Below, piece by piece: positions 58,814 through 63,990 of a stretch of DNA of 64,000 nt. Origin of the DNA: Salminus brasiliensis (taxonomy: Eukaryota > Chordata > Actinopteri > Characiformes > Bryconidae); contig NC_132894.1 in NCBI RefSeq assembly GCF_030463535.1, positions 11,085,933 to 11,149,932 on the forward strand, in the 5' to 3' direction. Position 1 is the first letter of the stretch, and every line of letters begins with the position of its first letter. The translations under genes were made by a program, and so were the position numbers. The notes under the pieces were generated by a model, which had not been told where the DNA came from, did no database searches, and saw only the letters and a program-made list of their open reading frames with translations.

Positions 58814-61800
58814 ATGGCGACCTCAAACAATCCGCGAAAATTCAGCGAGAAGATTGCCCTGCACAACCAGAAGCAGGCAGAGGAGACCGCGGCGTTTGAA
58901 GAAGTCATGAAAGACCTGAGCATTACTCGGGCGGCGCGGGTACGTGTCGGGTTTTTCATTTTCTTCACGGTGTTTTCAGTGAGGAGGAGGAGGAGGAGGA
59001 GGAGTGGTGTTGTGGTGGTGGTGGTGGTGGTGGTGGTGGTGTTGGTGTTGAGGTGGGTGAGTGAGTGGGGGGGCGGCGTTAGCCGAGTGGCTAAAGCTTT
59101 AAGCGGAACACACACGACTCAACGACCTTCCCGTCGACTGGCATTCCCTATAAAATCATGTCGACACAGAAAGCGGACGAGAGGCGCTTGTTTCGGGGCA
59201 TTAGTGAGAGCAGCGGGGCGAGAGAGCCACAGAAACGATGCGGATGCGGAGAAGCCAGGCTGTTCGACAGAAAAAACGGGCAGCCTGCCTACAGATGTTC
59301 TGCACATCTGCAAGGAGCCTGCTGGCTCGCTTTATAGTTCGTGTTACTCTTAATTTCATACGTTTCAAAATGTCCCACATTGTCACTCACCCTGTCGTTT
59401 TAATCCACTCATGTTTGTGCTGAGATTCTTATAATAGACCTGAAGTGATTTTTCAGGTTGTAGTTATAAGTGAAATGGACTGCCATCTCCTTCTTGCCTG
59501 GCAAGGCCGGGGTATTACTCTGCCCACTCTCTTCTTCAACTTTGCCAGAATCCTGACATGCTTTCCCTCTGAGTTGATTCGTGCTCACCATAGCGAGGGA
59601 TCTGTACCACAGCCAAAGCCTTCACAGGAGTCTGATTGGCCCTAATTTTAATCCCACAACTTCATAGATAAGCAATGCTCCACTGATCTGCTTTTCCCGT
59701 CGAGCATCAGTTTCTTTTGTTTTTGAATGTTTTCCCCTTTATGATACTTCAGTTAAGTTTCACTCACTCATGCCTTCATGCTGTCATTCACTCTGTCACT
59801 CATCCATGCACTTTTATTTTGCACAGCTGCAGTTGCAGAAGACCCAGTATTTGCAACTAGGCCAGAATCGTGGTCAGTGCTATGGAGGTTCACTGCCCAA
59901 TGTCAATCAGATTGGAAATAGCAACATTGACCTGCCTTTTCAGGTGAGCCCTTAGAAACTATATCGGTTGAAAAAGTCTTTTTGTTTGTCACTGTTTTGG
60001 TGGATTCTGCCCCATTCAGTTCACCCACTATTAACTGCAGGTACTGTGAGTGAGTTTTCTTTAACCCGTGCAATTCAATTTACATTTAACATAACCTAGT
60101 TATTTTTAGCTGCGTTTTAAGTGCAATATCTGTTTTCTAAACAATTGTCTGTGACATTCTGCATAGTCTTGACAATCTGAGACTTGTATGTAATGTAATC
60201 TGGGGAAAATCTGTACATCAGTGTAAGATGAGGCAAATAATGCTATAAGACATACACTTTTATACATACACATATTTTAAACATGTACCCCCTTGTGTTG
60301 CTCCCCTGTCAAACATAGGGTTTATTGCCGTGTGCATTTTTCATCTGTTACCTCTTATGGCAGCAATCCATTTTAAAAAGGCATTTTAACAGTTGCACAC
60401 CATATAGTTCACCTCAAAGCGCCGTCCTCAGATAATACCATGCAGCAGGGTGTGAGAAATTTAATTGCTTCCCACCTTAAGTCTTAGCAGACAAAGGATC
60501 CGTGCATCGTTATTGTTGAGAAGTGGGGGTGCCATCACTGCCTTTGTCATTGCTTTTCATTTATGAGACATTAGCAAGACTACAGACGGAACAATCTGAT
60601 GGTTTCATTGCTTTTATGCTTGCATATTTCCAGTCCATCTCTGATTAAAAGGCTGCACTATATTTTTATTTCTCTAGCTATGCCTCACCATTTATGTGGA
60701 AGTAGAAATAATGGATGCATGTTTTTAGGTTTAAAGAGTCCATGGCTGGGACGTGTCTTAAACCTATGAGATTTCTTTTCAGACCACAGTTTTGGATACC
60801 AGTCGAACGACCCGGCACCATGGCTTGGTTGACCGTGTGTATCGTGACCGGAACCGTATCACATCTCCGCATCGTAGGCCTCTGTCTGTGGACAAACATG
60901 GGCGTCAGATATCCTTTTCTTATTAATGGTGTTTTTGAACTGGTTGAACTTCAGCTAATTTTAAACCACAGTCTTAGACAGCAGAAGTGTTCCTCCCCCA
61001 GCACTTTTGTTAAATGCTGAAAGAAGGGGATTGCTTAGTTCCTTTTTTGTATACACATATTTGAAAACAAGAACAAGCATTTAGTGATAGAAATCTTACT
61101 TAAAAGTTATAGTATATGTCAGAAATAATCATGCCCCCTGTGCAACATATTCACACCTAAAACAAAAGAAATGGCCACAAAATAACATTAAATATGTAAT
61201 GCATAACTAGGAATGTGACCATTGCCAACTGAATTTACTGTCTGAATTAAGCCCAGTGAAGATTTGGTGTTGTAATTTCAGTTTCTCAGGTGGGTAATAT
61301 TCGATTTGAAGTAGTAAGTTGAACACAACAGTAAAAAAAAACGATATTAAATAATAGGATTACATTGTGTGATTACAATATTAAAGCAATATTAGTGAAT
61401 CATCACAAAAGTGGTGCCTAGAGAGACTAGTGGTGGTTATTGTGCATATCAGTATTGGGGACAATGATGATTGAAGCATATAATAGCAAATGGAATTGCT
61501 TTACTGTAAGACTGATCAACATTGTTGATCACGCACTTTCCCAAGGATGCCCCCTCCTGGAATTGCTTGTTGAGGGCTCAAAAGCATCAATTCTATGCTG
61601 GTGTTTTCTCCCTTTTTATGCCTTATTAGATGGTAGACGTCCATAGCCATCACATGTGGCTTTCATTACTGATGCTGGTTATAATAAACATCATAATAAA
61701 AGCGTGTCCACCTTCAGGAGCAGTTGAATATAGTAACACTTTACTGCACATATTGTAAGTTTAATGGTTAAATATCAGTGTGCGACTATGCCCATATATA

Positions 61801-63990
61801 AATAACGTACGCCAGGCCAGACTTTCAGATGTTTGAAACAAATGAGACCTTGTCCTTAACACAGTTACATTGACAGCTGCCCCTATGGCTCAGTGTATCT
61901 GTCACCTCCCCCTGACACCAGCTGGAGGAGGTAAGGCAATGTTTGCCATTGGGAATTGAAAACTTTGTTCCAAGTTGACGTGTGTAGCTTTTCCTACAGC
62001 ACACTTTCACCGACCTCATGCGTCTGTTCCAGGACTAATTCTGACTCAGCCTTACATCAGAGTGCCATGAATCCTGCTCCGCCAGACACTTTTGTTGGAG
62101 GTTCCCAAGAGCTGCAGCCAAAACGAGGTAACATGATTAAGCTTTTTTTACTGTTTGTATTGGCCAGTTCAAATAAAATAAACTCTGTTATGACTTTCTA
62201 TTTTTTTTCTGTTTCTAGTTTTATTGCTCACGCCCCCAGATACAGAGGAGCCTGAAACTGAAATGGAGAAAGATGATCAGAAGGCATCATTGCGTCCTAA
62301 ATCCCATGATGTTCCAGGGATTAAGTGAGTAAAGTTGTTTCTCGGTTATATATAATTCTGCTGATAATTTTGCTGCCACACTAGAAGTGTGCAGGTCACA
62401 GGCCCTATACACGATAGTTAACTTCTTGAACCCTAGACTTAGTTTTAAACTTTAAGATGATTTAACATTTACATTTAACATTTAACATTTAAGTTATTTA
62501 GCAGACACTCTCATCCAGAGCGACTTACAAAATTGCTTCACTGTTTACTCAGAAAAATACCCTTAGCTAGTTTGTATAGACTAGGATCCAAAGACACTAC
62601 TAAACACAAAAGTCAACATGTAGCCCATAAAATTAGTATCCACTGTCAATTATTCTTTATCAACTACCAAGTAATTTGTATTTTCTATGATTTACTCCGT
62701 ACCTGCCATGAAGGATTCAGAATCCACTGTCGATTATTTCATTCACTGTGGATTATGATCTTGCCGCAAATTATGATCACCCAAGTTCACCTACTTTGAG
62801 CTTCTCAAAGAGTCACATATAGTGTGTTTCCCTGCACTTAGCACAGTCCCATTTTTCATTTTTCCCAGCATATTCCCATCCCCCGATCAAGAAGTGAACA
62901 CCTCTTTGATGCCAGCCACTCACAACACAGGCGGCTCCCTGCCGGACCTCACCAACATCCAGTTCCCACCTCCCCTGCCGACACCCCTGGACCCGGATGA
63001 CCCTGTATCATTTCCCACCACCAGCACTTCCAGCAGCACGGGCAATCTCACCACCAACCTCACCCACCTGGGCATCAGTGCCGCCAGCCATGTCCCCCCC
63101 TCTCCTCCTGCACTGAGTGGCCAGACCCAGCCTGCTCCTGCCCTCACGCTTAACATCGACGCTCAGCAACAGCAGCAGCAGCCATGTCCCCAGCAGCTCT
63201 CCCCCACACTCTCTCCCACGCTCTCACCTCAGATGTCCATTTCTCAGGTAAGGTCAAAATAAAGCCCCTGTCACTCATGCATGTTTTTCCTGGAATGTAA
63301 TGGTGATTAAAATGGAGGGGGGTTAATGTGAACACAAGCCAGAGTCAGAATCCCAGTAAAGCAAATTATATGATAAGCCTGTCCAGTGCCAGGACATCTA
63401 AGGAAAAAATAATGTTTGTGTGATGATTTTTCTTTTTTTTTTTTTTTTTTTTTGCACCTTTTGTACATTTGGCTTCAGAAAACATGTGACTATATTTTGT
63501 ACATTATTGAGAAGCTGACTTTAGTTAGATTGGCTATTATACCTTTAAAAGTAATACCTATTAAACCTTTGAAGTCATATTGCTTCTAGAGCTGCTTACG
63601 TTGTTTTGTTGGAATAACCATGTGTTAAATAGAGCATTGTAGAGGGTTTGTTAATGAAAACACAACGCATCGGCAAGAAAATCAGAATTGCTACTTTATG
63701 TTTCGGGATCTGCAGCCAATCGCGATGGACAGCATGTCTCTGGAGCAGCAGCTCTCTCAGTACTCACTGCTCAGTTTGCTGAGCGACCTGCAGAAGCAGC
63801 AGCAGACCCTGCCCCAGAACATCCGCCTCATTCAGCTGCCACCGCTTACCGTTAGCTCTTCCTCCAGCACACCACAGACCTCCCTCACCACCCAGTCGCC
63901 AACGGCCACCAGCGCACCGGTCAGCTCGGTGAGTTCAACCTGCCCCATCGTCATTGAGAACAATAGCAAAGTGGCACAAAGGCTGCCGCC
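58814..63990 (+). CDS. crtc1: CREB-regulated transcription coactivator 1, 3' partial
   Basis: CRTC1 is held in the cytoplasm by 14-3-3 when phosphorylated by SIK/AMPK and enters the nucleus on Ca2+/cAMP signals to boost CREB. Exons: 58814-58939, 59827-59943, 60783-60908, 61869-61930, 62033-62127, 62219-62324, 62869-63247, 63716-63990 (end uncertain). Phases agree. The N-terminal CREB-binding domain starts [33 protein letters not shown] places Ser147 at the main SIK site (human Ser151), and [13 protein letters not shown] keeps a second regulatory Ser (204). Exon 7 has a Gln6 run and Pro/Ser-rich sequence; exon 8 begins [13 protein letters not shown]. The last exon could instead end at the strong donor TCG|GTGAGT (63928); the next candidate, CC|GTAATT, precedes an in-frame TAA. 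The C-terminal half lies beyond the window. Adjacency to klhl26 supports CRTC1 over CRTC2/3. Confidence 0.93.
58940..59826 (+). other. crtc1 intron 1
   Basis: Begins GTACGTG, then purine-rich (GAG)n and (GGT)n tracts (58981-59050). The remainder is AT-rich with no exon supported. Confidence 0.65.
58981..59050 (+). repeat. (GAG)n followed by (GGT)n trinucleotide tract
   Basis: Eight GAG/AGG-type triplets followed by about a dozen GTG/GGT triplets, ending with GTTGGTGTTG. It lies 41 bp after the exon 1 donor. Confidence 0.9.
60909..61868 (+). other. U12-type AT-AC intron of crtc1
   Basis: The exon ends CATGGGCGTCAG and the intron begins ATATCCTTTT, identical to the consensus U12 5' splice site. 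Near the 3' end TCCTTAAC (61853-61860) matches the U12 branch-point consensus, about 9 bp before the terminal AC (61867-61868). The flanking codons join as Gly-Arg-Gln-Ile-Asp-Ser-Cys-Pro-Tyr in frame, matching CRTC1. No GT donor in frame near 60909 gives the conserved protein. Confidence 0.85.
62460..62535 (-). repeat. SINE/LINE tail fragment, inverted
   Basis: TTTAGCAGACACTCTCATCC and AGAGCGACTTAC are inverse complement to the GTAAGTCGCTCT...TCTGCTAAA tail block. It lies in a crtc1 intron. Confidence 0.65.
63248..63715 (+). other. crtc1 intron 7
   Basis: AT-rich with a long T run near 63428-63453. Donor GTAAGG, acceptor CTGCAG. Nothing else recognised. Confidence 0.65.

Follow-up and report, generated by a model that had tools for sequence, protein, structure and literature searches.

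A putative AT-AC intron of the U12 class in crtc1 of a fish, at a junction where CRTC paralogs of the same genome carry U12-type signals of two subtypes

In one published listing the CRTC family has three minor-intron genes in human, and one ancestral gain could account for them (PMC6865273). Because that listing includes the CRTC family, CRTC minor introns are already known in kind, and the finding described here is mostly an expected one. In open-licence full-text literature, PMC6865273 alone deals with minor introns among the matches listed, as judged by title and the start of the abstract; in the same literature crtc1 was not found together with U12-type introns, nor was CREB-regulated transcription coactivator found with the minor spliceosome. 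Among U12 introns, the reported share of AT-AC is ~22% for zebrafish (PMC7367187, Table 2); for human it is ~22% and for mouse 24% (PMC6717393). These proportions are at odds with a first-pass annotation of the DNA studied here, which had called AT-AC introns a small fraction of the U12 class. Switching between AT-AC and GT-AG subtypes is described for 36 U12DB clusters (PMC2831892). In human cells A-type minor introns are reported to be CENATAC-dependent, with 92% of A-type versus 24% of G-type introns affected upon CENATAC depletion (PMC8280824).

The window, i.e. the whole stretch of DNA that was analysed (64,000 nucleotides; C17:11085933-11149932 in its own genome of 1.07 gigabase), carries a gene for which a model of eight exons, 58814 to 63928, was read off the sequence. 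The encoded open protein of 408 residues matches Pfam TORC_N (residues 6-66; 4.2e-24) and TORC_M (residues 144-282; 3.1e-58). On these two domain matches the gene is a CRTC gene, as had been proposed; it is presumably crtc1, a label that we take from features of the protein and not from a database match. Upstream of crtc1 lies a Kelch-like gene (51107-52705, + strand; BTB, BACK, kelch), whose best solved match is KLHL22; in human, CRTC1 has KLHL26 as a neighbour. Exons of a PDE4-family phosphodiesterase are present at 13261-14158 (+ strand), and a UnaL2-type LINE 3' element (Rfam RF00436; 62488-62541, - strand), the sole Rfam match in the window, lies inside intron 6 of the crtc1 model (62325-62868).

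The consensus strings for U12-type introns used here are RTATCCTTT for the donor and TTCCTTRAY for the branch site. Intron 3 of crtc1 starts ATATCCTTTTC and finishes ...TTGTCCTTAACACAGTTAC; its donor core is ATATCCTTT, with CC at positions +5 and +6, and its best branch site, GTCCTTAAC, matches the consensus at eight of nine positions. The intron has a terminal AC, and removing it joins HGRQ to IDSCPYG in a continuous coding frame at phase 0. The first-pass annotation had claimed an AT-AC intron at exactly these borders, a perfect U12 donor match, and a U12 branch point about 9 bp before the terminal AC; direct reading confirms all three (Table 1). The branch-site motif TCCTTAAC ends 8 nt before the end of the intron, and its last A, at 9 nt, lies below the optimum of 11-13 nt from branch A to intron end quoted in PMC6717393, although counting conventions differ. 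The remaining six introns of the crtc1 model are GT-AG introns, with donors that match the U12 consensus at 2-5 of nine positions. Around intron 3 no direct repeats were found, and two pairs of inverted repeats of 12-13 nt have at least one arm inside the intron.

Table 1. Features of the crtc1 model and of the corresponding introns in the CRTC paralogs (positions are those of the window)
Feature	Position	Strand	Remarks
crtc1 exon 1	58814..58939	+	start codon at 58814
crtc1 exon 2	59827..59943	+	gene model
crtc1 exon 3	60783..60908	+	ends HGRQ, sequence ...CATGGGCGTCAG
Putative U12-type AT-AC intron of crtc1 (intron 3)	60909..61868	+	960 nt, phase 0
5' splice site ATATCCTTTT	60909..60918	+	9/9 to RTATCCTTT
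In-frame TAA upon retention	60924..60926	+	HGRQISFSY then stop; translation of retained intron
Branch-site motif TCCTTAAC	61853..61860	+	last A 9 nt from last intron base
3' terminal AC	61867..61868	+	read from sequence
crtc1 exon 4	61869..61930	+	begins IDSCPYG, sequence ATTGACAGCTGC
crtc1 exon 5	62033..62127	+	gene model
crtc1 exon 6	62219..62324	+	gene model
crtc1 exon 7	62869..63247	+	gene model
crtc1 exon 8	63716..63928	+	3' end guessed; model stops near window end
C29 intron			7981 nt; HGRQ then ATATCCTTTA...TCCTTGAC...AC, 3' end TTTTCCTTGACTAAACCAC then GCAGAG
C5 intron			1286 nt; GTATCCTTAC...TCCTTAAT...AG, 3' end TCCTTAATCACTAACCTCAG
C3 intron			211 nt; GTATCCCTCA...TCCTTAAT...AG, 3' end TCCTTAATTGCACTTCTTAG

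The motifs by themselves prove nothing, because their frequency is that of chance. On both strands of the window together, RTATCCTTT is seen once against 1.25 expected, and 30 times against 36.5 when one mismatch is allowed; TCCTTRAY occurs five times against 10.9. In first-order Markov simulations of the window (n = 300), 94 of the 300 simulated windows held at least one donor RTATCCTTT with TCCTTRAY within 10 kb and a fitting terminus. Motif counts, being at or below chance, were dropped as evidence for a U12 intron. What supports the U12 reading is that the motifs sit at a coding junction and recur in paralogs: the sole exact donor match among the 127,984 window positions falls at the exon end demanded by the CRTC reading frame.

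A protein search of the window's own genome, in which the best candidates only were scored, placed CRTC exons at four loci including crtc1, the number of CRTC loci being at least four. All four show U12-type signals where crtc1 has intron 3, strong in three and weaker in C3, a tally that is not blind because borders were picked with the motifs in view. In the C29 copy, which we call crtc3-like from its features, the exons flanking the intron read KHGRQ up to ATATCCTTT and then AESSPYG, and the branch A is likewise 9 nt away from the end of the intron. Bit scores against a solved CRTC2 chain (C5 88.9, C3 84.9, C29 75.4, crtc1 71) suggest that C5 and C3 fit crtc2, an indication and not a tree. 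By subtype, crtc1 and the crtc3-like copy have AT-AC introns, and the two crtc2-like copies have GT-AG introns. The gene strand of stretches of ~10 kb holds a single TCCTTRAY in C29, a single one in C3 and two in C5, and in each copy one of them is at the junction; the only exact donor among these stretches is that at the junction in C29. The C5 stretch has five donor sites at 8/9, the junction among them. The C3 copy is the weakest case because its donor scores 7/9, a value reached 27 times in C3's 9.9 kb, and because its exon 3, for which tblastn gave no match above 24 bits, was positioned by eye. This crtc2-like copy (G000:C3:40080959-40081169, L011) looks diverged, with the weaker donor GTATCCCTC and a very short putative minor intron of 211 nt. 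Intron-versus-intron blastn among the four CRTC introns gave no match at E 0.01 in any of the six pairs, so the intron ends look retained while the remainder has drifted. When viral contigs were scanned for relatives, two stretches matched a pattern, and neither codes for a relative.

From the junction and its recurrence in the paralogs, crtc1 intron 3 is almost certainly of the U12 type and the AT-AC subtype, and inherited. Its most probable source is a minor intron already present in an ancestor shared by the four CRTC genes, whose introns at this junction would then share one origin; from that ancestral minor intron, crtc1 and the crtc3-like copy would have come to carry AT-AC termini, and both crtc2-like copies GT-AG termini. 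In the proposed mechanism U11/U12 would read ATATCCTTTT and TCCTTAAC, and U4atac/U6atac/U5 would then excise the intron, joining HGRQ to IDSCPYG at phase 0. The minor spliceosome would thus splice crtc1, and crtc1 would depend upon it, a failure of splicing being predicted either to truncate the protein after residue 128 or to lead to mRNA decay. The CENATAC sensitivity of human A-type introns may, by analogy, carry over to crtc1 and crtc3 here. An Rfam search of the genome for U12, which scored 44 of 48,180 candidates and detected none of 14 controls, gave no match.

The alternative that survives best is compatible with the U12 reading and concerns what the intron might do: its retention could be a regulated switch, giving a CREB-binding fragment that inhibits CRTC. 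Translation into the retained intron would stop 15 nt in for crtc1 (five residues), 24 nt for C29, 60 nt for C3 and 18 nt for C5, hence within 20 residues in all four copies, and the retained crtc1 product would keep TORC_N (CREB-binding) and lose TORC_M. An engineered CRTC2 1-54 fragment is described as a dominant negative (PMC9556844), and the abundance of U6atac, which p38 can raise, is reported to limit minor splicing (PMC3728624). Against these points, chance alone predicts short open stretches into introns. Moreover, premature stops in exons other than the last usually lead to mRNA decay, the plainer expectation here, and a regulated switch appears unlikely. We regard as quite unlikely the broader proposal that, where minor splicing is limiting, the four CRTC genes would yield N-terminal CREB-binding fragments damping cAMP-CREB signalling, the sensitivity of crtc1 and crtc3 (AT-AC, with a need for CENATAC expected) exceeding that of the crtc2 copies (GT-AG). 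Intron 3 of crtc1 also contains five AATAAA/ATTAAA strings (61187, 61346, 61380, 61683 and 61695), which could serve intronic polyadenylation.

A second alternative is U2-type splicing at this junction, through a GT-AG or GC-AG pair whose borders are slightly shifted. Enumeration of donor-acceptor pairs within ~60 nt of the borders gave 376 candidates, 35 of them in frame; of these, five are GT-AG and six GC-AG. The GT donors comprise four distinct sites, three with G at +5, and the mildest pair, GC-AG 60902/61864, would swap only RQ for Y. However, only 60909/61868 rebuilds HGRQ/IDSCPYG exactly, and none of the U2-type pairs restores it. All five GT-AG pairs lose a block of residues, e.g. SVDKHGRQ (60884/61864) or an 11-residue block (60904/61893), and the C29 copy retains KHGRQ to the same point, followed by the same ATATCCTTT. 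U2-type splicing, which offers no clear reason for U12 donor and branch motifs to persist in paralogs, is on these grounds very improbable. Other in-frame AT-AC and AT-AG pairs shift a few residues, e.g. 60909/61862, which inserts SY. That the major spliceosome removes this AT-AC intron, a route with known examples (PMC6717393, PMC8280824, PMC2831892), is still less probable, since G stands at +5 in every U2-type AT-AC intron described for sodium channel genes (PMC2831892), in contrast to the CC at +5/+6 of crtc1, and the crtc1 donor is a full U12 match accompanied by a U12 branch site.

With crtc1 intron 3 read as an inherited U12-type AT-AC intron, a CREB coactivator in fish would depend on the minor spliceosome, as the CRTC listing implies for humans. 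The likeness to the human CRTC minor introns is one of family, i.e. members with minor introns, the comparison with PMC6865273 being made at family level only; that the positions are identical is an expectation. In its make-up the crtc1 intron shares the ATATCCTTT donor and a TCCTTRAY branch near a terminal AC with U12-type AT-AC introns generally, as described in PMC8280824, and shows no difference from them, making it a plain example of the class. With two subtypes at a single junction, the four paralogs offer a natural comparison of AT-AC and GT-AG minor intron splicing and regulation, which the unequal effect of CENATAC depletion on A-type and G-type introns makes worthwhile (PMC8280824). 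The CRTC paralogs resemble the subtype-switched introns of U12DB in having AT-AC and GT-AG at one position (PMC2831892), and differ from them in that the CRTC subtype split lies between paralogs within one genome.
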